Assembly: GCF_010685995.1 (NCBI RefSeq)
Contig: NZ_JAAGWK010000015.1
Coordinates: 62,001-126,000, forward strand
Reading direction: 5' to 3'
DNA from: Goekera deserti
GTDB taxonomy: Bacteria; Actinomycetota; Actinomycetes; Mycobacteriales; Geodermatophilaceae
DNA: 64,000 nucleotides
Position numbers and translations under genes: made by a program. Shown here piece after piece: positions 30,989 through 40,266 of this stretch (positions within the stretch are counted from its first letter, which is position 1; the number at the start of each line of letters is the position of its first letter). The notes under the pieces are model-generated. The model worked only from the letters and a program-made list of their open reading frames with translations. It did no database searches and was not told the origin of the DNA.

Positions 30989-31163
30989 CCGCGCGCACCG
31001 GCGACGGCGGTCCCCACCTCTGCCGAGGCGGCGGTGAGCATCCCGGAACACGATCGACACGTGAGCGGGTCGGCCGTTACCGGAGCTTCACGGGCGTGAC
31101 CCGGCGGTGACACCCCGCGCCGATTGACTCCGTCTCGACCCGCAGGACCTGCTGCGGGGCGCG

Positions 31164-31300
31164 TCTAGGGTTCCGTCGCCGGTCACGGTGGGTCTGGTCC
31201 GAGAGATGCAGGCAGGGTCCCGCGTACGCCGCGGCCCTGTCCCACGGCGGGAGAAAAGCCCGGGAGGCCATCAGAGGCCCGGGCCGTGCTGTGCCCTGGC
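31164..31300 (+). promoter_or_regulatory. Guanidine-I riboswitch (ykkC class) with terminator
   Basis: Conserved blocks of the ykkC/guanidine-I aptamer are present in order: TCTAGGGTTCCG (31164-31175), GGTCTGGTCCGAGAG (31191-31205), a variable stem (31211-31240), and ACGGCGGGAGAAAAGCCCGG (31244-31263). The aptamer 3' part, GCCCGGGAGGCC (31258-31269), can also pair with GGCCCGGGC (31276-31284) to form a terminator-like hairpin, so ligand binding would choose between the two folds. The permease ATG follows at 31320. Guanidine-I riboswitches are genetic ON switches for guanidine export or degradation genes, matching the operon downstream. Confidence 0.88.
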
Positions 31301-31319: not shown

Positions 31320-32837
31320 ATGACCGCGCTCTCGGATCCACCCCGCACCGCACCCGACGCCGCCGACGACAGCGACCTGGCCGGATTCGGATACCAGCCG
31401 CAACTGCACCGCAGCATCGGCACCTTCGGCTCCTTCGCCGCCGGGTTCTCCTTCGTCTCCATCCTCACCACGGTGTTCCAGCTGTTCAGCTTTGGGTTCG
31501 ACTTCGGCGGGCCCGCCTTCTTCTGGACCTGGCCGCTGGTGTTCGTGGGCCAGCTGCTGGTGGCGCTCTGCTTCGCCGAGCTGGCCGCTCGCTACCCGAT
31601 CTCCGGCTCCATCTACCAGTGGTCCTCCCGGCTGGGCGGCCGGCTGTGGGGCTGGACCGCGGGCTGGCTGATGCTGGTCGGGCAGGTGGTCACGGTGGCC
31701 GCCGCGGCGATCGCGATGCAGATCGTGCTGCCGGCGATCTGGAGCGGCTTCCAGGTCCTGGACAGCCCCACCGCCAACGCCGTCCTGCTGGGCAGCGGGG
31801 TGCTGGCGGTCACCACCTTGATCAACGCCGTCGGCATCCGGGCGATGTCGGTGATCAACAGCATCGGGGTCACCTGCGAGCTGGTCGGCGTCGCGCTGCT
31901 GTGCGTTGCGCTGTTCTCCAAGGCCGAGCGCGGCCCGGGCGTGGTGCTGGACACCGGCATCGTGGGCGACTCGGGCTACGTGTGGGCGTTCGCGGTCTCC
32001 GCGCTGATGGCCGCCTACGTGATGGTCGGCTTCGACAGCGCCGGTGAGCTGTCCGAGGAGACCCGGGACCCGCGCCGGACGGCGCCTCGGACGATCCTGC
32101 GCGCGCTCGTCGTCTCCGGCATCGGCGGCGCGCTCATGCTGCTCGCCACCCTGATGGCCGCACCCAGCCTCACCGACGGTGCCCTCGGCGACCCCGCCCA
32201 GGGGCTGCCCTCGGTGCTGCTCAGCCGGCTCGGCGAGGACCTGGGGCGGGTCTTCCTGGTGATCGTGGCGATCGCCGTGCTGGTCTGCACGCTGGCCATC
32301 CAGACCGCCACCACCCGGATGATGTTCTCGATGGCCCGCGACCGGGTGCTGCCGTTCTCCGCGGCCCTGGCGAAGGTCAACCGCCGCACCGGCGCACCGA
32401 TCCTGCCCGCCGTCGTCGTCGGCGTGCTGGCCATCGGGCTGCTGGTGCTCAACGTGCACAACGAGTCGGTCTTCCTGGCGCTGACCAGCGTCTGCATCAT
32501 GCTGCTCTACATCGCCTACCTGATGGTGACCGTCCCGCTGCTGCGCCGCCGGCTGCGCGGCGGCTGGGCGCAGGACGACGAGCTGTTCTCCCTCGGCCGG
32601 TGGGGGCTGGCGGTCAACATCGGTGCCGTGGTCTGGGGCACCGCGATGGCGCTGAACCTGGCCTGGCCCCGCGAGGCCGTGTTCGGCACCGAGTGGTACC
32701 TGCAGTTCTTCCCGCAGCTGATGCTCGCCGGTGCCCTGCTGGCCGGGGCGGTGGCCTACGCGGTGCAGCGGGCGCAGGTCCGCCGGGACAGCGCCGTGCT
32801 CGACCCGAGCCCGGCGACCGCGGAGGTGTCCCGGTGA
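31320..32837 (+). CDS. APC-superfamily amino acid/guanidine permease
   Basis: The 505-residue protein has about 12 membrane segments and APC landmarks: IGTFGSFAAGFSFVSILTTV, CFAELAARYPISGSIYQWSS, VGFDSAGELSEETRDPRRTA and MMFSMARDRVLPFSAAL. The N- and C-termini are polar. It is the first gene after the guanidine-I riboswitch and overlaps the next gene by GTGA, so it is probably the guanidine (or guanidino compound) importer of the pathway. APC permeases related to amino-acid/GABA carriers are frequent in ykkC-controlled urea-carboxylase operons. Confidence 0.9.
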   Translation: MTALSDPPRTAPDAADDSDLAGFGYQPQLHRSIGTFGSFAAGFSFVSILTTVFQLFSFGFDFGGPAFFWTWPLVFVGQLLVALCFAELAARYPISGSIYQWSSRLGGRLWGWTAGWLMLVGQVVTVAAAAIAMQIVLPAIWSGFQVLDSPTANAVLLGSGVLAVTTLINAVGIRAMSVINSIGVTCELVGVALLCVALFSKAERGPGVVLDTGIVGDSGYVWAFAVSALMAAYVMVGFDSAGELSEETRDPRRTAPRTILRALVVSGIGGALMLLATLMAAPSLTDGALGDPAQGLPSVLLSRLGEDLGRVFLVIVAIAVLVCTLAIQTATTRMMFSMARDRVLPFSAALAKVNRRTGAPILPAVVVGVLAIGLLVLNVHNESVFLALTSVCIMLLYIAYLMVTVPLLRRRLRGGWAQDDELFSLGRWGLAVNIGAVVWGTAMALNLAWPREAVFGTEWYLQFFPQLMLAGALLAGAVAYAVQRAQVRRDSAVLDPSPATAEVSR

Positions 32838-33538
32838 TCCCGGCCCACGACGTCCCCGCCGGCGCGCACTGGTCGCTGGCCCTGCGGGCGGGCCGGGTGC
32901 TCCGGCTGACCGCCCTGGACGACGGCGCGGTCTGCTCCACGCTGCTGTTCGCCCACCGCGACCCGGTGGACCGGCTGAACGTGCCGGACACCCTCAAGGC
33001 GCAGATGAGCGCCCGGATCACCCCGCCGATGGTGCTGATGAGCGACCGGGGCGCCGCCCTGGCCTCGGTCACCGGCTCGTCGCTTGACTGGCACGACTGC
33101 CTCACCGGGCACTCGCTGGACCGGCACCTGGACCGGCACGCAGCGGTGTCCGGCCCGTCGTCCTACGCCACCGACCGCAACGACTGGCGCCGCTCGGCCC
33201 GGGCCGGGCTGCTGTCCGAGCTGCGCAAGCACGGCCGCGGCCCGGCCGACCTGCACGCCTGCGTGAACCTCTTCGCCAAGGTGGCCATCGGCCCGGACGG
33301 CGGCCTGACGTTCGTGCCCGACCACGCGCACGCCGGGGACTGGGTCACCCTGCGCGCCGAGCAGGACCTGCTGCTGGTGCTCTCCACCGCCCCGCACCCG
33401 CTGGACCCGGCCTGGGCGCCCGGCGCGGTGCGGGCCGAGGTCGAGGCCGGTGCCCCCTACGGGCCCGACGACCCGTCGGTCACCTTCCGACCCGAGAGCG
33501 CCCGCGCCCTCGCCAACGCCGCGGCGGTGCTCGCATGA
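32834..33538 (+). CDS. Urea carboxylase-associated protein 2 (carboxyguanidine deiminase subunit, CgdB-like)
   Basis: The 234-residue DUF1989 protein starts at the GTG at 32834 inside the permease stop. Family features: GAHWSLALRAGRVLRLTAL, DRLNVPDTLKAQ, MLMSDRG-type segment VLMSDRGAALASV, DWHDCLTGHS and NLFAKVAIGPDGGLTF. In other bacteria UAAP1 and UAAP2 (CgdA and CgdB) form a heteromeric zinc deiminase that converts carboxyguanidine to allophanate and ammonia. The Asp-x-x-Asp/His/Cys set (WHDCLTGH) is kept. ATGA overlap with the partner gene at 33535-33538 indicates coupled synthesis. Confidence 0.88.
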   Translation: MIPAHDVPAGAHWSLALRAGRVLRLTALDDGAVCSTLLFAHRDPVDRLNVPDTLKAQMSARITPPMVLMSDRGAALASVTGSSLDWHDCLTGHSLDRHLDRHAAVSGPSSYATDRNDWRRSARAGLLSELRKHGRGPADLHACVNLFAKVAIGPDGGLTFVPDHAHAGDWVTLRAEQDLLLVLSTAPHPLDPAWAPGAVRAEVEAGAPYGPDDPSVTFRPESARALANAAAVLA

Positions 33539-34185
33539 CCACCCTGTCCCTGCCGCTGGTGCCCAGCCCGCTGCTGGAGTCCGACGCCGTCCTGGACGTG
33601 GTGGTGCAGGCCGGGGACGGGTTCCTCGGCCGGGTGCCGGCCGGCGGCTCGTTCCGGATCGTCGACCTGCACGGCAACCAGGCCGCCGACACGCTGTTCT
33701 ACGACGCCGCCGACGTCACCCACCGGTACAGCGCGGTGGACACCATCCGGGAGCAGGGCTCGGTGTACCTGACCGCCGGGTCGACGCTGCTGTCCCAGCA
33801 GCTGGAGCCCCTGGTCACCGTCACCGCCGACACCTGCGGCCGGCACGACACCCTCGGGGGGGCGTGCGCGCAGGAGTCCAACGTCGTGCGCTACGGCATG
33901 CACACCCGGCACCAGCACGCCTGCCGGGAGACGTTCCTGCGGTACGGCGCGGCGGCGGGCATCGGCGCCCGGGAGCTGGCGCCCAACGTCAACTTCTTCA
34001 TGAACGTGCCGCTGACCCCCGACGGCGGCCTCAGCTTCGCCGACGGTCTCTCCGCCCCGGGCCGGTACGTCGAGGTGCGCGCCGAGCGGGACGTGCTGGT
34101 GCTGATCAGCAACTGCCCGCAGCTGAACAACCCCTGCAACGGCTGGGACCCCACCCCGGTGCGGCTGCTGGGGTGGTGGGCGTGA
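33535..34185 (+). CDS. Urea carboxylase-associated protein 1 (carboxyguanidine deiminase subunit, CgdA-like)
   Basis: The 216-residue DUF1989 protein has the UAAP1 pattern: GGSFRIVDLHGNQAADTLFY, HRYSAVDTIREQGSVYLTAG, and the strongly conserved ADTCGRHDTLGGACAQESN, which holds the His/Cys metal ligands. NVNFFMNVPLTPDGG follows. It is the partner of the preceding gene, and both are needed for carboxyguanidine deamination in characterised systems. It overlaps its neighbours by 4 bp on both sides. No residues that I regard as essential are missing. Confidence 0.9.
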   Translation: MTTLSLPLVPSPLLESDAVLDVVVQAGDGFLGRVPAGGSFRIVDLHGNQAADTLFYDAADVTHRYSAVDTIREQGSVYLTAGSTLLSQQLEPLVTVTADTCGRHDTLGGACAQESNVVRYGMHTRHQHACRETFLRYGAAAGIGARELAPNVNFFMNVPLTPDGGLSFADGLSAPGRYVEVRAERDVLVLISNCPQLNNPCNGWDPTPVRLLGWWA

Positions 34186-36209
34186 CCGCGGTGCACCCGG
34201 TCGTGCTGACCGGCACCGTCGAGGTGCTCACCCCCGGCGTGCAGACCAGCGTGCAGGACCTCACCGGTCGCACCGGGCTCTGGGACGTCGGGGTGCCGCC
34301 GTCCGGGGCGTGGGACGACCTGTCCTTCGCGCTGGCCAACCGGGCCGTCGGCAACCCGCCCACCGCGGCCGGGCTGGAGGCGGTGGTCACCGGCCCGCGG
34401 CTGCGCTTCGGTGCCCGCACGCTGGTCTGCCTGGCCGGGGCGGTCGGCTCCGCGACGCTGGACGGCCGGCCGGTGCGCCCCGGCGTGGTCACCGTCGTCC
34501 CGGCCGGTGGCGTGCTGGACATGGGCGCCTGCGGTGCGCCCGGGATGCGCGGCTACCTCGCCGTCGCCGGCGGGATCGCAGTGCCGCAGGAGCTGGGCAG
34601 CCGCGCCACGTTCCTGCTCGGCGGCTTCGGCGGCCTGGGCGGGCGGGCACTGCAGGCCGGTGACGCGCTGCCCGTGGGCCGGGTGGAGAACCTGCAGGCC
34701 CCGATCGACGTCGCCCCGCTGCTGCCCGAGCTGGGCGACAGCTGGACCCTGCGCGTGGTCCCCGGCCCGCACGGGGCACCGGAGCACCTCACCGAGGACG
34801 GCGTCACCGAGCTGTTCGCGGCGAGCTGGACGGTGGACCACCGGGCCGACCGGACCGGCATCCGGTTGCTCGGGCCGGCACCGCGGTGGGCCCGGCAGGA
34901 CGGCGGCGAGGCCGGCCTGCACCCGTCGAACATCCACGACAGCGCCTACCCGGTCGGCGGGATCATGCTCTCCGGTGACACCCCGGTCATCGTGGGGCCG
35001 GACGGGCCGAGCCTGGGCGGGTTCGTCGTCCCGTGCGCGGTGGTGCGGGCCGACCGGTGGCAGCTGGCCCAGCTGCGCCCGGGCGACACGGTGCGGCTGG
35101 TGCCGGTGACCCCGGAGGTCGCCGCCGCGGCGGCCGCCGAGCGCGCCGCGCTGCTCGCCGAGCCGGCCGCCGCGGTGGCGGCGACCTGGGAGGCGGCGCT
35201 GGCCGGCCGCCGGTCCGGTCCGCCGCCGGTGACCGCCGGACCGCCGGTGCGACCGGTGCTCGCCGAGCTGGCCGCCGACGGCCCGCGTCCCGGTGTGACG
35301 GTGCGCGCCTCCGGCGACCACCACCTGCTGCTGGAGGCCGGGCCCGCCCAGCTGGACCTGGACGTGCGGGTGTGGGTGCACCTGCTCGCCCAGCGGCTGC
35401 GCGCGCTGGCGCTGCCGGCGGTGCGCGAGCTGGTCGAGGGTGTCCGCTCGATGCTGGTGCAGGTCGACGAGCGGGCGCTGCCGCTGCCGGTGCTCGCCGA
35501 GCTGCTGGTGCAGCTGGCCGGCGAGGTGCCGGACCCGATGACGGTCACCCTCGACGTGCGCGAGGTGACCCTGCCGATCACGCTGGACCACCCGGCCGCA
35601 CACGAGGCGATGGCCCGGTACGCCCGCTCGGTGCGCCCGGATGCCCCCTGGTGCCCGGACAACGTGGAGTTCATCCGCCGGGTCAACGACCTGGAGCACC
35701 GCGACGACGTGTTCGACGTGGTCACCGCGGCCACCTACCTCGTGGTGGGGCTGGGCGACGTCTACCTGGGGGCACCGGTCGCCGTCCCGATCGACCCGCG
35801 GCACCGGCTGGTCACCACCAAGTACGACCCGGCCCGCACCTGGACGCCGCAGAACGCCGTCGGCATCGGCGGGGTGTACCTCTGCGTGTACGGGATGGAG
35901 GGGCCGGGCGGCTACCAGCTGGTCGGCCGCACCGTGCCCGTCTGGCGGCACGTGCCCGGCTCGACGGCGAAGCCCTGGCTGCTGCGCCAGTTCGACCGGC
36001 TCCGGTTCGCCCCGGTCACGGCCGAGGAGCTGGCCGACCGGCGGGCCGCCGTCGCGGCCGGGGCGGAGGACCTGCAGGTGCGCCCGGCGACGTTCTCCCT
36101 CGCCGAGGTGCGGGCGCTGGAGTCCGCGCACGCCGCGGAGATCGGCACCGTGCGCACCCGGCGCCGGGCCGCCTTCGACGCCGAGCGCGCCCGCTGGGGC
36201 ACCCGGTGA
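34182..36209 (+). CDS. Urea/guanidine carboxylase carboxyltransferase domains only (KipA-KipI type), lacking BC and BCCP
   Basis: The 675-residue protein consists of an AHS2/KipA-like domain (about 8-330: DLTGRTGLWDVGVPPSGAWD, GGIMLSGDTPVIVG) and an AHS1/KipI-like domain (about 375-600: DNVEFIRRVN, YLVVGLGDVYLGAP, PRHRLVTTKYDPARTWTP, GGIGGVYLCVYG-type end). In urea and guanidine carboxylases these lie between an N-terminal biotin carboxylase (about 450 residues) and a C-terminal biotin carrier domain. Here the gene begins precisely at the AHS2 start (GTGA overlap with UAAP1) and stops after FDAERARWGTR, just where the carrier domain would begin. No E-A-M-K-M biotin motif is present. The biotin half must come from elsewhere, or the enzyme works differently, as in 5-oxoprolinase PxpBC. 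Confidence 0.87.
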   Translation: MTAVHPVVLTGTVEVLTPGVQTSVQDLTGRTGLWDVGVPPSGAWDDLSFALANRAVGNPPTAAGLEAVVTGPRLRFGARTLVCLAGAVGSATLDGRPVRPGVVTVVPAGGVLDMGACGAPGMRGYLAVAGGIAVPQELGSRATFLLGGFGGLGGRALQAGDALPVGRVENLQAPIDVAPLLPELGDSWTLRVVPGPHGAPEHLTEDGVTELFAASWTVDHRADRTGIRLLGPAPRWARQDGGEAGLHPSNIHDSAYPVGGIMLSGDTPVIVGPDGPSLGGFVVPCAVVRADRWQLAQLRPGDTVRLVPVTPEVAAAAAAERAALLAEPAAAVAATWEAALAGRRSGPPPVTAGPPVRPVLAELAADGPRPGVTVRASGDHHLLLEAGPAQLDLDVRVWVHLLAQRLRALALPAVRELVEGVRSMLVQVDERALPLPVLAELLVQLAGEVPDPMTVTLDVREVTLPITLDHPAAHEAMARYARSVRPDAPWCPDNVEFIRRVNDLEHRDDVFDVVTAATYLVVGLGDVYLGAPVAVPIDPRHRLVTTKYDPARTWTPQNAVGIGGVYLCVYGMEGPGGYQLVGRTVPVWRHVPGSTAKPWLLRQFDRLRFAPVTAEELADRRAAVAAGAEDLQVRPATFSLAEVRALESAHAAEIGTVRTRRRAAFDAERARWGTR

Positions 36210-37873
36210 CCGCCGTGCAGCCCGACCTGACCCCGGCCGACCTGGACCAGCCGGCCTTCATCCGGGTGCTCACCGCCGACGAGGTGACCGGCCTCGGCCC
36301 GGCGGCGGACGGGCCGCTGGCCGGGCTGCCGTTCGCCGTGAAGGACAACATCGACGTCGCCGGCGTGCCGACCACCGCGGCCTGCCCCTCCCGGGTGGAG
36401 CCCGCGACCGGCTCGGCGACGGCGGTGCAGCGGCTGCTGGACGCCGGCGCGCGACCGGTCGGCAAGACCAACATGGACCAGTTCGCCACCGGCCTGGTCG
36501 GCACCCGGTCGCCCTACGGGGCCTGTCACAGCGTCGCCTCCGCCGCGCACGTCAGCGGCGGCAGCAGCTCGGGCAGCGCGGTGGCGGTGGCCGCGGGCGT
36601 GGTGCCGCTGGCACTGGGCACCGACACCGCCGGCAGCGGCCGGGTGCCGGCGGCGTTCAACGGCCTGGTCGGGATGAAGCCGACCCGGGGGCTGGTGCCC
36701 ACCCGCGGGGTGCTGCCTGCGGCGCCGTCGCTGGACTGCGTCACCACCCTCACCCGCACCGTGGCGCTGGCCCGCACCGCGCTCGGCGTGCTCGCCGGCC
36801 ACGACCCGGCGGACCCGTGGTCCCGCCCCGCGCCGGCCGCGCTGCCCCCCGGGGTGGCCCGCCGGATGCGGGTGGTGGCGGTGCCGGACGGCCCGCTGGA
36901 CCTGGACCCGCCGCACCGCGCGGCGTGGGAGGCGGCGCTGGCGCACGCGGCGACGGTCGCCCGGCTGGTGCCGGTCGACGTCTCGGCGTTCCTGGAGGCG
37001 GCCCAGCTGCTCTACGGCGGGCCGTTCCTCGCCGAGCGGCTGGCCGCGTTCGGGCAGCTGCTGGAACCCGACCACCCCGGCCTGGACCCGGTCGTGCGCC
37101 GGATCGTGCTGGGGGCGCGCCCGATCAGCGGGGCCGACGTGTACCGCGGCCAGCAGCGGCTGGCCGAGCTGCGGGCCGCCGCGCTGCCGGCCTTCCTCGG
37201 CGCCGACGCGCTGCTGCTGCCGGTGACGCCCGGGCACCCGACGCTCGCCGAGGTCGCCGCCGACCCGGTCGGGGTCAACGCCCGGCTGGGCACCTACACC
37301 AACATGGTCAACCTGCTTGACCTGTGCGCGGTCGCGGTGCCGGCCGGCACGCGCGCCGACGGGCTGCCCTTCGGCGTCCAGCTGCTGGCGCCGGCCTTCG
37401 CGGACGGCCCGCTGCTGGACCTGGCCGCGCGGTGGTGCGGGGAACCGGTCGACCAGGTGCCGACCCGCAGCCTGCTGGCCGTCGCCGGCGCCCACCTGAC
37501 CGGGCAGCCGCTCAACCCGCAGCTGGTGGGTCTGGGGGGCCGGCTGCACGCCCGGGCGCGCACCGCGGGCGGGTACCGGATGTACCGGGTGCCGGGTGCG
37601 CTGCCCCGGCCCGGGCTGGTCCGCGGCGCCGGTGGCCCGCCTGCGGGCATCGAGGTCGAGGTGTGGGACCTGCCGGCCGGCGGGCTGGGGGAGCTGCTCC
37701 CGGCGGTGGCCGCGCCGCTGGCGCTGGGACCGGTGGAGCTGGACGACGGCACGGTCGTGCCCGGGTTCCTCACCGACCCCGGCGGCGTCGACGCCACCCA
37801 GGACATCAGCGGCTCCGGCGGCTGGCGGGCCCACCTCGCAGCCCGGATCGCGCGGGGGGCCGCCGACCGGTAG
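36206..37873 (+). CDS. atzF: Allophanate hydrolase
   Basis: The 555-residue protein starts at the GTG at 36206 (GTGA overlap). The amidase-signature triad is intact: Lys46 (AVKDNID), cis-Ser120 (GGSSSGSA) and nucleophile Ser144 (GTDTAGSGRVPA). These spacings match AtzF. The C-terminal domain (about 435-555; LVGLGGRLHARARTAGGYRM; VEVWDLPAGGLGELLPAV) is the AtzF-type second domain. The enzyme splits allophanate into two ammonia and two CO2. It closes the guanidine operon, and a terminator follows 3 bp after the stop. Confidence 0.93.
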   Translation: MTAVQPDLTPADLDQPAFIRVLTADEVTGLGPAADGPLAGLPFAVKDNIDVAGVPTTAACPSRVEPATGSATAVQRLLDAGARPVGKTNMDQFATGLVGTRSPYGACHSVASAAHVSGGSSSGSAVAVAAGVVPLALGTDTAGSGRVPAAFNGLVGMKPTRGLVPTRGVLPAAPSLDCVTTLTRTVALARTALGVLAGHDPADPWSRPAPAALPPGVARRMRVVAVPDGPLDLDPPHRAAWEAALAHAATVARLVPVDVSAFLEAAQLLYGGPFLAERLAAFGQLLEPDHPGLDPVVRRIVLGARPISGADVYRGQQRLAELRAAALPAFLGADALLLPVTPGHPTLAEVAADPVGVNARLGTYTNMVNLLDLCAVAVPAGTRADGLPFGVQLLAPAFADGPLLDLAARWCGEPVDQVPTRSLLAVAGAHLTGQPLNPQLVGLGGRLHARARTAGGYRMYRVPGALPRPGLVRGAGGPPAGIEVEVWDLPAGGLGELLPAVAAPLALGPVELDDGTVVPGFLTDPGGVDATQDISGSGGWRAHLAARIARGAADR

Positions 37874-37932: not shown

Positions 37933-40266
37933 ATGCCCGCCCCGAGCTTCGAGACCGACCCGTGGACGGTCCGCGAGCCGCACCTGGAGCTCGGGACGCT
38001 CGGCGTCGCCGAGTCCGTGTTCAGCCTGTCCAACGGCTACCTGGGCATCCGGGGAACGCTCGACGAGCTCGAGCCGCACGTCAGCCGGGGCACCTACCTC
38101 TCCGGCGTGCACGAGACCCACCCGCTGTCCTATCCCGAGGGCGGCTACGGCCACCCCGAGGAGGGAGAGGCGCTGCTCACCGTGGCCGACGGGACGCCGG
38201 TGCGGCTGCTGGTGGACGGCGTCCCGCTGGACGTGCGGGAGCTGCGGTTCCAGCTGCACGAGCGGACCCTGGACCTGCGCAGCGGCACCCTGGACCGCCG
38301 CGCGCGCTGGACGACGGCGGCGGGCACCACGGTGGAGATGACGTCCCGGCGGCTGGTGTCGCTGCGGGAGCGGTCGATCGCCGCGGTGCGGTACGAGGTG
38401 CGCGCCCTGGACGGGCCCGCGCACGTCGTCGTGCGCTCCGAGCTGGTGGACGGCGAGGCCACGCCCACCGGCGTGGACAACGACGACCCGCGCGTCGCCG
38501 AGCAGCTGGACCACGCCTTCGAGTCGCTGACCCACGAGCGCGCCAGCAGCGGCGGCGCGCTGGCCGCGCGGACCCGGCGCTCGGGCATCACCGTCGCCGC
38601 GGCCGTCGGCCACCGGGTGCAGGGAGGCGCGCTGAGCACCTACGCCGACGTACGGCAGGTTGTGGCCACCGTCGTCGCGTCCCTGGACGCGGGGGAGTCG
38701 GTCACCGTCGTGAAGACCGTGGCGCACACCTGGTCCCACGACGCCGACCCCGGCTCGCTGACCGGGGAGGCGTGGGCCACGGTGGACTCCGCCCTGGACC
38801 TGGGCTGGGACGGTCTGCTGGCCGGCCAGCGGGCGGTGCTCGACGAGCTGTGGGCCACCGCGGACGTCGAGGTCGACGGCGACCCGGAGCTGCAGCAGGC
38901 GCTGCGCTACGGCGTCTTCCGGCTCGCCTGCGCCACGGCCTGCATCTCCGGTGCGCCCGTCGGCGCCAAGGGGCTGACCGGGATCGGGTACAGCGGCCAC
39001 ACCTTCTGGGACGTCGAGGGCTTCGTGCTCCCCGCGCTCACGCTGCTGCGCCCGGACGCCGCGGCCCGGCTGCTGCGCTGGCGTGCGGGCACCCTGGACC
39101 ACGCCCGGGAGCGGGCCCGCACCCTGGGCGTGGCCGGGGCGTCGTTCGCCTGGCGCACCATCAGCGGCCGGGAGGTGTCGGCCTACTGGCCGGCCAGCAC
39201 TGCCGCGGTGCACGTCAACGCCGACATCGCCCGCGCCTTCTGGTTGCACCAGCACGTCACCGGCGACGACGTCGACTCCCTCGGTGGCCTGGAGGTGCTG
39301 GTGGAGACGGCGCGGCTGTGGGCCTGCCTCGGCCACGAGGACGCCGCCGGCGCCTGGCACCTGTTCGGCGTCACCGGGCCCGACGAGTACACCGGCGTCG
39401 TCGACGACAACGTGTTCACCAACCTGATGGCACGGCGGAACCTGCGGTGGGCCGCAGACGCGTGCCGACGGTGGGAGTCGCGGGCGGCCGAGCTGGGCGT
39501 GGACCACGCGGAGATCGCCTCGTGGCGGGCCGCGGCGGACGCGGTGCACGTGCCGTGGGACGAGGGCCTGGGCGTGCACCCGATGAACACCAACTTCACC
39601 TCCTACCGGGAGTGGGACTTCGACGAGTCGCCGGACGCGCCGGCGGTGCAGGAGGAGAACCACTACGCCACGTTCTACCGGCGCCAGGTGCTCAAGCAGG
39701 CCGACCTGGTGCAGGCCCTGTGGTGGTGCCGGCAGGACTTCACCGCCGAGCAGGTGGCCCGCGACCTGGAGTACTACGAGGCGCGCACCGTGCGCGACTC
39801 GTCGCTGTCGGCGTCGATCCAGGCGGTCGTGTGCGCGCAGGCGCAGCACCCCGACCTGGCCCTGCGGTACCTGCGCGAGTGCGCGCTGGTGGACCTGCGC
39901 GACGTGCAGGGCGACACCGCCAAGGGCCTGCACATGGCCGCGGTCGCCGGCTCGTGGCTGGCCCTGGTCGCCGGGCTGGGTGGCCTGCGGGAGGACGGCG
40001 AGGACCTGGAGCTGGCGCCGCTGCTGCCCGCGGCACTGTCCCGGACCGCCTACCACGCGACCTGGCGCGGCCGGCTGCTGCGGGTGCAGACCACCCGGGA
40101 CGGCACCACGGTCACCCTGCTGCGCGGCGAGGGCCCGGTGCCGGTCGTGGTGGACGGCGAGCGGCTGACGGTGACCGGCGACGCCCCGGCGCACGCCCCG
40201 CTGCGGGACCCGGCACCGCTGCTGGCCGAGCCGCGCCAGCCGCCCGGCCACGAGCCGCGGACCTGA
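37933..40266 (+). CDS. Glycoside hydrolase family 65 phosphorylase (maltose/trehalose/kojibiose type)
   Basis: The 777-residue enzyme has the GH65 order: N-terminal beta-sandwich (FSLSNGYLGIRGTLDE), the (alpha/alpha)6 barrel, and a short C-terminal beta domain. Substrate-site motifs are IGYSGHTFWDVEGFVLP and AYWPASTAAVHVN. The catalytic acid is Glu485 in VTGPDEYTG, and the phosphate-binding region appears as SSLSASIQAVV. GH65 enzymes reversibly phosphorolyse alpha-glucosides to beta-glucose 1-phosphate. The exact disaccharide cannot be read from sequence. No phosphoglucomutase is adjacent. An ATG follows GAGGACCC. Confidence 0.92.
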   Translation: MPAPSFETDPWTVREPHLELGTLGVAESVFSLSNGYLGIRGTLDELEPHVSRGTYLSGVHETHPLSYPEGGYGHPEEGEALLTVADGTPVRLLVDGVPLDVRELRFQLHERTLDLRSGTLDRRARWTTAAGTTVEMTSRRLVSLRERSIAAVRYEVRALDGPAHVVVRSELVDGEATPTGVDNDDPRVAEQLDHAFESLTHERASSGGALAARTRRSGITVAAAVGHRVQGGALSTYADVRQVVATVVASLDAGESVTVVKTVAHTWSHDADPGSLTGEAWATVDSALDLGWDGLLAGQRAVLDELWATADVEVDGDPELQQALRYGVFRLACATACISGAPVGAKGLTGIGYSGHTFWDVEGFVLPALTLLRPDAAARLLRWRAGTLDHARERARTLGVAGASFAWRTISGREVSAYWPASTAAVHVNADIARAFWLHQHVTGDDVDSLGGLEVLVETARLWACLGHEDAAGAWHLFGVTGPDEYTGVVDDNVFTNLMARRNLRWAADACRRWESRAAELGVDHAEIASWRAAADAVHVPWDEGLGVHPMNTNFTSYREWDFDESPDAPAVQEENHYATFYRRQVLKQADLVQALWWCRQDFTAEQVARDLEYYEARTVRDSSLSASIQAVVCAQAQHPDLALRYLRECALVDLRDVQGDTAKGLHMAAVAGSWLALVAGLGGLREDGEDLELAPLLPAALSRTAYHATWRGRLLRVQTTRDGTTVTLLRGEGPVPVVVDGERLTVTGDAPAHAPLRDPAPLLAEPRQPPGHEPRT

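Follow-up and report, generated by a model that had tools for sequence, protein, structure and literature searches.

A carboxyltransferase-only relative of guanidine carboxylase in Actinomycetota, with a housekeeping acyl-CoA carboxylase subunit as its probable biotin partner

Introduction

Guanidine and urea carboxylases (TIGR02712; Protein Data Bank (PDB) entries 3va7 and 5i8i) carry an N-terminal biotin carboxylase (BC), a carboxyltransferase (CT) and a C-terminal biotin carrier (BCCP). In K. lactis numbering, Asp at position 1330 marks guanidine carboxylases and sets them apart from urea carboxylases, and Asp at 1584 is required (PMC11410670, Nature 2024); a review likewise assigns Asp to guanidine enzymes and Asn to urea enzymes at the specificity position (PMC12186494). 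Here we analyse a relative of these enzymes encoded in Goekera deserti, within a 64,000-nucleotide stretch of contig NZ_JAAGWK010000015.1 (positions 62,001 to 126,000). We call this whole stretch the window, and feature coordinates are positions within it. The window CT has the same fold over 626 residues, with 36% identity to the K. lactis enzyme, and shares about 46-53% identity, the operon partners and the conserved Asp (1584) with bacterial full-length guanidine/urea carboxylases. In contrast to these enzymes, it has no BC, no BCCP and a Met, rather than Asp or Asn, at 1330.

Its gene set is that of the actinobacterial AmtR-controlled permease-urf1-urf2-urea carboxylase-amidase operon (PMC4222082; msmeg_2184-2189), for which GTGA/ATGA overlaps have been reported in Kineococcus (PMC4222082). 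Unlike the AmtR operon of M. smegmatis and others, the window operon has a guanidine riboswitch; Asp-type relatives consisting of the CT alone, with a flanking TetR-family gene, do occur among the sampled actinobacteria. The excerpted text of PMC4222082 calls the functions of the AmtR operon speculative and does not mention missing biotin domains. The product of msmeg_2187 is named urea amidolyase or urea carboxylase in PMC4222082, PMC3662644 and PMC4617892, whose excerpts likewise make no mention of missing biotin domains. Our searches of open-licence PubMed Central papers brought up no description of a CT-only guanidine carboxylase.

Two further systems bear on this locus. In the actinobacterial acyl-CoA carboxylases, one BC-BCCP alpha subunit, AccA3, is common to ACCase 4, 5 and 6 (PMC11001197), which is the logic that we propose here, but the CTs there are AccD proteins with acyl-CoA substrates. 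PxpBC and the MSMEG_0435-MSMEG_0436 pair (PDB 3mml, 9yx5) have CT_A_B and CT_C_D domains, as does the window protein. PxpBC, however, is made from two genes in the opposite order, beside a PxpA-like gene in the G. deserti genome. The PxpBC substrate also differs from that of guanidine carboxylase.

Results

The carboxyltransferase gene and its product

Comparative analysis suggests that the window CT is probably the dedicated subunit of a two-part biotin-dependent carboxylase fed by the housekeeping AccA3. Pfam finds CT_A_B (residues 36-307) and CT_C_D (373-589) and no other domain in the protein. TIGR02712, the urea carboxylase model, aligns only over positions 447-1107 of 1201 (772.8 bits; cut-off 1303.85), so the N-terminal BC and the C-terminal BCCP are absent. 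The frame contains no AMKM-type biotinylation motif, and no BC match was found in the window locus. The halves are ordered A/B then C/D, as in urea carboxylase. An AlphaFold model (pLDDT 84.9, pTM 0.88) has K. lactis urea amidolyase 5i8i as its top structural match, with Z 40.3 over the 626 residues; among solved relatives, the urea carboxylase and the urea amidolyase of K. lactis cover nearly the entire protein. Since BC, BCCP and the Asp rule all fail, we do not file the protein as a guanidine carboxylase member and regard it instead as acting like the CT part of such an enzyme.

The CT gene is under purifying selection. Against G109, its nearest relative, the ratio of nonsynonymous to synonymous substitution rates (dN/dS) is 0.19, with 0.19 for UAAP1, 0.26 for UAAP2 and 0.21 for allophanate hydrolase; against three more distant relatives (L048, L050 and L053) it is 0.33, 0.31 and 0.37. 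We defined 252 conserved CT positions from 70 full-length relatives (two cut by a contig end). In the clade of 11 CT-only loci delimited below, 192 of these are kept in at least 90% of members, D526 included, and individual members keep 201-211, so the clade CT is constrained yet diverged. Ten alignment columns distinguish CT-only from full-length forms. A degenerate or purely regulatory protein with no enzymatic role might be suspected from the loss of two catalytic domains and from more changes at conserved positions than in the CT-only forms of two Nocardia, which keep 246 and 243 of the 252. We consider this very unlikely given a dN/dS on par with the operon neighbours, an operon conserved in several families and the retained Asp526.

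Distribution and origin of the carboxyltransferase-only form

Across 112 genomes of the window's own family, counting single matches that span the whole CT, five have a relative. The own genome and G109 (88% identical) carry CT-only genes, and G007, G015 and G040 carry a full-length gene at 54-55% identity to the window CT. Named loci come from the best 80 of 578 relatives, among which 13 are CT-only, all from Actinomycetota; CT-only forms outside the phylum may exist beyond the best 80. Nine of the 13 (64-75% identity) belong to Amycolatopsis, Kutzneria, Kribbella, Nocardioides, Actinokineospora and two Frankiales assemblies, and with the window and G109 they form the 11-locus clade. The remaining four (52-54%) are from two Nocardia, one Solirubrobacteraceae and one actinomycetotal assembly. 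The other 67 of the best 80 extend far enough for a BC on the N-terminal side and a BCCP on the C-terminal side, with a contig end truncating the N-terminal part in L069 and L079. The ten other clade loci (64-88% identity) are truncated identically and, over the extent of their flanks, have matching neighbour genes, and none of the 15 CT-only loci compared has a BC or BCCP match within flanks of 1 to 10 kb.

To gauge the form by phylum, we compared two samples of genomes. An even draw of 396 actinobacterial genomes gave 13 matching places (≤1e-100), spread over 12 genomes, of which 10 are CT-only (9 of 12 without the window) and 3 full-length. A sample of 299 proteobacterial genomes gave 30 matching places, spread over 24 genomes, and none is CT-only, as called by the proxy of frame length alone (at least 1201 residues) and with the centre genome, already known as full-length, included. 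The contrast of 10/13 with 0/30 gives a Fisher p of 1.5e-7. The CT-only form is thus no accident of one genome and recurs across Actinomycetota.

A tree was built from 59 rows, in which the non-actinobacterial full-length ones were represented by 22 drawn at random and by L108. It rejects the grouping of every CT-only form in one clade (approximately unbiased test, p-AU 0.00027). One CT-only group, which contains Nocardia and other members of the window's order, falls within the full-length actinobacterial enzymes; the Met clade is separate from it, together with an Ile-type group; L059, L239 and L244 are uncertainly placed. Repeated loss suggests that a substitute for the biotin half is readily available. 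A recent deletion is ruled out by the 64-88% identity within the clade and the low dN/dS, and the full-length genes of the own family (G007, G015, G040) sit on another branch and carry Asp.

These results bear on a first-pass annotation of the locus. Its proposal of a clean, non-random loss of BC and BCCP is borne out by the Pfam domains, the TIGR02712 span of 447-1107, the ten clade relatives and the low dN/dS, and the 4-bp overlaps that it described on both sides of the gene are present (GTGA each). It had named a recent deletion from a full-length gene as the finding that would speak against it, and that history is rejected here. The survey of related UAAP-linked operons that it called for finds the CT-only form in 10 other actinobacterial clade loci. 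It had treated the case as local: the feature is real, and the local scope does not hold.

Candidate biotin suppliers

We surveyed BC genes in the 15 CT-only genomes by a PF02785 search that gave 61 places, all of which were fetched. Sixty were classed by best BLAST score; the partial one on L188 is nearest AccA1. The assemblies G115, G119, G121 and G124 are small or fragmented. No orphan guanidine/urea-type BC-BCCP gene turned up at these 61 places in the 15 genomes, some fragmentary, and for these assemblies we reject the idea, raised by the first-pass annotation, of a separate biotin gene of this type elsewhere. A clear guanidine/urea-type BC is present in two of the 15, each time within a complete Asn-type enzyme (L223/L232 and L195/L233). 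Ten more BC rows favour the guanidine/urea-type query by a margin of only 2-24 bits and an eleventh is tied; each of these eleven is part of a long multidomain frame, with 612-1400 residues after the BC. Only two Amycolatopsis genomes have stand-alone BCs that lack a carrier, three in all (L169, L177, L178).

An AccA3-type BC-BCCP is found in 13 of the 15 genomes. Of the two without one, G119 has no complete AccA3, and G124 has a BC that scores nearer AccA1 (402) than AccA3 (380), with no AccD nearby. G. deserti itself has only two complete BC genes: an AccA3-type gene on C17, downstream of an AccD5-type gene and with a birA-like gene on the opposite strand, and an AccA1-type gene on C45, between AccD1-type and acyl-CoA dehydrogenase-like genes. 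Contig C16 adds a stand-alone 99-residue carrier with the motif SMKM (L130:8658-8957, minus strand) and a protein whose BC part is confined to the N-terminal domain (L130:8989-10377, minus strand), by sigma/anti-sigma-like genes. Several gene names given for C16, C17 and C45 are putative and were read from the sequence.

Both AccA1 and the small C16 carrier are present in the own genome, and either could be the partner in place of AccA3. We regard this as quite unlikely. AccA1-type genes with AccD1 (at least 70% identity) occur in 11 of these 15 genomes, against 13 for AccA3-type genes. The C16 carrier is adjoined only by the BC N-domain protein, and no ATP-grasp or BC C-domain was found beside it.

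A solved structure supplies a precedent. PDB 9yx5 (2025) is titled 'Structure of the long chain acyl-CoA carboxylase complex from Mycobacterium smegmatis with MSMEG_0435-MSMEG_0436 bound', and by title and chain names it lists AccA3 together with both members of a CT_A_B/CT_C_D pair. The pair chains are named 'allophanate hydrolase' subunits and are matched by queries of the CT_A_B and CT_C_D types. The BC chain that 9yx5 lists is AccA3, with no other BC chain of the entry among the matches listed (60 of 76), which also speaks against AccA1 or the C16 carrier. From its title and chain names, we take 9yx5 as a solved precedent for CT-family proteins on an AccA3 complex, and the MSMEG_0435-MSMEG_0436 pair may itself be a biotin-linked carboxyltransferase. 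Because of this precedent, we place AccA3 first and the biotin-free route low.

That route, also raised by the first-pass annotation, would have the CT core alone activate guanidine in a biotin-independent, ATP-driven reaction like that of PxpBC. The core is homologous to PxpC/PxpB, all 15 CT-only loci compared are without a BC or BCCP match, and no further conserved neighbour was seen. Against this, the protein scores far under the PxpC and PxpB equivalog cut-offs (151.1 against 500 bits and 34.3 against 145.55 bits), aligns along the entire urea carboxylase CT and has no Pfam domain beyond the CT halves. The gene is adjoined by UAAP2 and allophanate hydrolase genes, with no PxpA (LamB/YcsF-type) neighbour. 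Structure 9yx5, which contains AccA3, includes the PxpBC-type pair of M. smegmatis, and this weakens the proposal further; we retain the proposal as unlikely. A split enzyme that uses a housekeeping acyl-CoA carboxylase alpha subunit is the best fit of the three explanations first offered.

Several points weigh against an AccA3-fed CT acting on guanidine. The pairing of AccA3 with the CT is inferred from the gene inventory and the 9yx5 precedent, and AccA1 or the C16 carrier are alternative, if quite unlikely, partners. The 9yx5 pair is of the PxpC/PxpB type, with 36% identity on the CT_A_B side (from entry 3mml) and 24% on the CT_C_D side. AccA3 in CT-only genomes discriminates little, because AccA3 is expected in nearly all of the phylum. 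Proteobacteria, too, have free-standing BC-BCCP alpha subunits, so the phylum contrast alone does not point to AccA3. Within the CT itself, 60 of the 252 conserved positions fall short of 90% retention in the clade, and Met262 takes the place of the residue reported to decide for guanidine.

PxpBC-type relatives occur in their own right in these genomes. An ordinary-looking PxpA-PxpB-PxpC (5-oxoprolinase-type) cluster lies on contig C48 of the own genome (L131:8810-11030). In three other own-family genomes, BC, CT_C_D and CT_A_B matches stand in a row (L227, 8037-11174; L228, 7665-10808; L229, 11-3109; all minus strand), as a PxpBC-like split carboxylase with its own BC.

The specificity residue and the substrate

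By the Asp criterion, Met262 at K. lactis position 1330 does not qualify the window CT as a guanidine carboxylase. The specificity position is Met in all 11 clade loci (12 aligned rows, counting the window protein separately). Among 75 distinct full-length genes aligned, it is Asp in 71 (73 rows) and Asn in 4, and among non-clade CT-only forms it is Asp in 9, Ile in 3 and Ala in L244. All clade rows have gained acidic residues at 219 and 419 (D219 and E419), and these might stand in for the lost Asp.

Guanidine is nevertheless the likely substrate despite Met262, given the riboswitch and the UAAP1, UAAP2 and allophanate hydrolase genes, which together support the first-pass annotation on this point. 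A Guanidine-I riboswitch lies 5' of the Met-type operon in all ten clade loci with enough flank (the window, L206, L048-L054 and L056), L055 starting inside UAAP1; the L054 score is barely above threshold (64.2 against 63). At the gathering score of 63, no such riboswitch was found within the available flanks of the 11 other CT-only loci scanned (of 13, the scan covering all but L237 and L243) or of 5 full-length actinobacterial loci.

The UAAP partners differ in how far they have changed. UAAP2 keeps 61 of 64 conserved columns, including all six conserved Cys/His columns, and UAAP1 keeps 18 of 27. Three UAAP1 positions (46 E, 74 R and 82 D) do not vary among 29 other loci, and all three are substituted in each of the 10 clade loci compared. 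We therefore regard the Met class, with its shared Met, riboswitch and UAAP1 changes, as a coherent variant.

These features also fit Met-type enzymes that use another substrate, such as an N-substituted guanidine, while remaining split biotin-dependent carboxylases: Met is found in 11 of 11 clade loci against 71 Asp and 4 Asn in the 75 full-length genes, and the otherwise invariant UAAP1 positions have changed with it. We hold this to be a lesser but real possibility. Each clade operon whose flank reaches far enough has a Guanidine-I riboswitch ahead of it, and the Gd-I switch of Vreelandella is reported to be specific for guanidine when compared with methylguanidine (PMC12508155). The new acidic residues at 219 and 419, moreover, might replace the lost Asp.

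Two side observations concern this residue. A CT-only relative in genome G229 (L244 / L246) has Ala at the specificity position, no GLGDV motif and no UAAP match within 1.5 kb, and possibly has another function; L244 was counted as CT-only in the survey and kept out of the residue classes. The Asn-type (urea) full-length carboxylases at L232, L233 and L242 have the carrier motif AMKL, not AMKM.

Proposed mechanism and implications

In the mechanism that we favour, with AccA3 as the donor, guanidine would turn the operon on through the riboswitch. A free-standing alpha subunit of an acyl-CoA carboxylase would supply BC and BCCP in trans, with AccA3 (C17) as the likeliest candidate. AccA3 would carboxylate its own biotin using ATP and bicarbonate. 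The carboxybiotin would swing into the CT active site and convert guanidine to carboxyguanidine, UAAP1/UAAP2 would deiminate this to allophanate, and allophanate hydrolase would release ammonia and CO2. The route from guanidine through carboxyguanidine to allophanate is as in PMC12186494. We give an AccA3-fed CT together with guanidine itself as substrate roughly an even chance. The case is similarly balanced for a wider history in which the biotin half was lost more than once and the CT plugged into AccA3, with the Met clade as a third specificity class, for guanidine or a derivative, with matching UAAP1 changes.

If this is true, many soil Actinomycetota would use guanidine by means of an enzyme in two parts whose biotin subunit also serves fatty-acid synthesis. 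One biotin subunit would feed CTs of two families and link nitrogen scavenging to lipid metabolism, and the MSMEG_0435-MSMEG_0436/AccA3 structure would be one case of a broader actinobacterial habit. The Asp rule for guanidine degraders (TIGR02712 position 701; PMC11410670) would discard Met-type operons. The partner question is addressable with three purified proteins.

Operon architecture and regulation

Table 1. Features of the putative guanidine operon, in window coordinates
Feature	Position	Strand	Evidence or remark
Guanidine-I riboswitch aptamer, 5' of operon	31154..31268	+	Rfam RF00442, 75.6 bits (gathering 63), E 2.4e-12, full model 1-107
APC-type permease, probable guanidine importer	31320..32837	+	TIGR03428 661.6 bits (below cut-off 740.45), PF13520
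UAAP1 (carboxyguanidine deiminase-type subunit)	32834..33538	+	TIGR03425 213.2 bits, cut-off 205.95
UAAP2 (carboxyguanidine deiminase-type subunit)	33535..34185	+	TIGR03424 303 bits, cut-off 284.7
CT-only guanidine/urea carboxylase relative, without BC and BCCP	34182..36209	+	675 residues, GTG start
Codon 262, ATG, Met (K. lactis 1330)	34965..34967	+	Asp in guanidine, Asn in urea carboxylases
Codon 526, GAC, Asp (K. lactis 1584)	35757..35759	+	Conserved CT aspartate, kept
Allophanate hydrolase (amidase and AH_C domain)	36206..37873	+	TIGR02713 602.3 bits, cut-off 511.05; PF21986

All four gene junctions of the operon (Table 1) have 4-bp overlaps: GTGA at permease/UAAP1, UAAP2/CT and CT/allophanate hydrolase, and ATGA at UAAP1/UAAP2. 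The permease, whose TIGR03428 family is named 'permease, urea carboxylase system', is read from the ATG at 31320, 3' of the riboswitch; a longer frame from 31188 would run into the aptamer. Both the Guanidine-I riboswitch and the Met at the specificity residue are absent from the first-pass annotation. A rough clustering of open reading frames in 21 loci, covering genes of at least 70 residues with crude frames and some shadow-frame clusters, gave no extra conserved partner gene common to the clade flanks. A MIR531 match at 38517-38577 was far under the gathering score and was dropped as chance.

Six of the seven long-flank Asp-type CT-only loci have a TetR-family protein in the flank, the family being read from sequence. 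These AmtR-like genes lie near the operons at L059, L085, L098, L249, L250 and L251, and the pathway thus appears under two control modes, a TetR-family gene in Asp-type CT-only loci and the riboswitch in Met-type loci.

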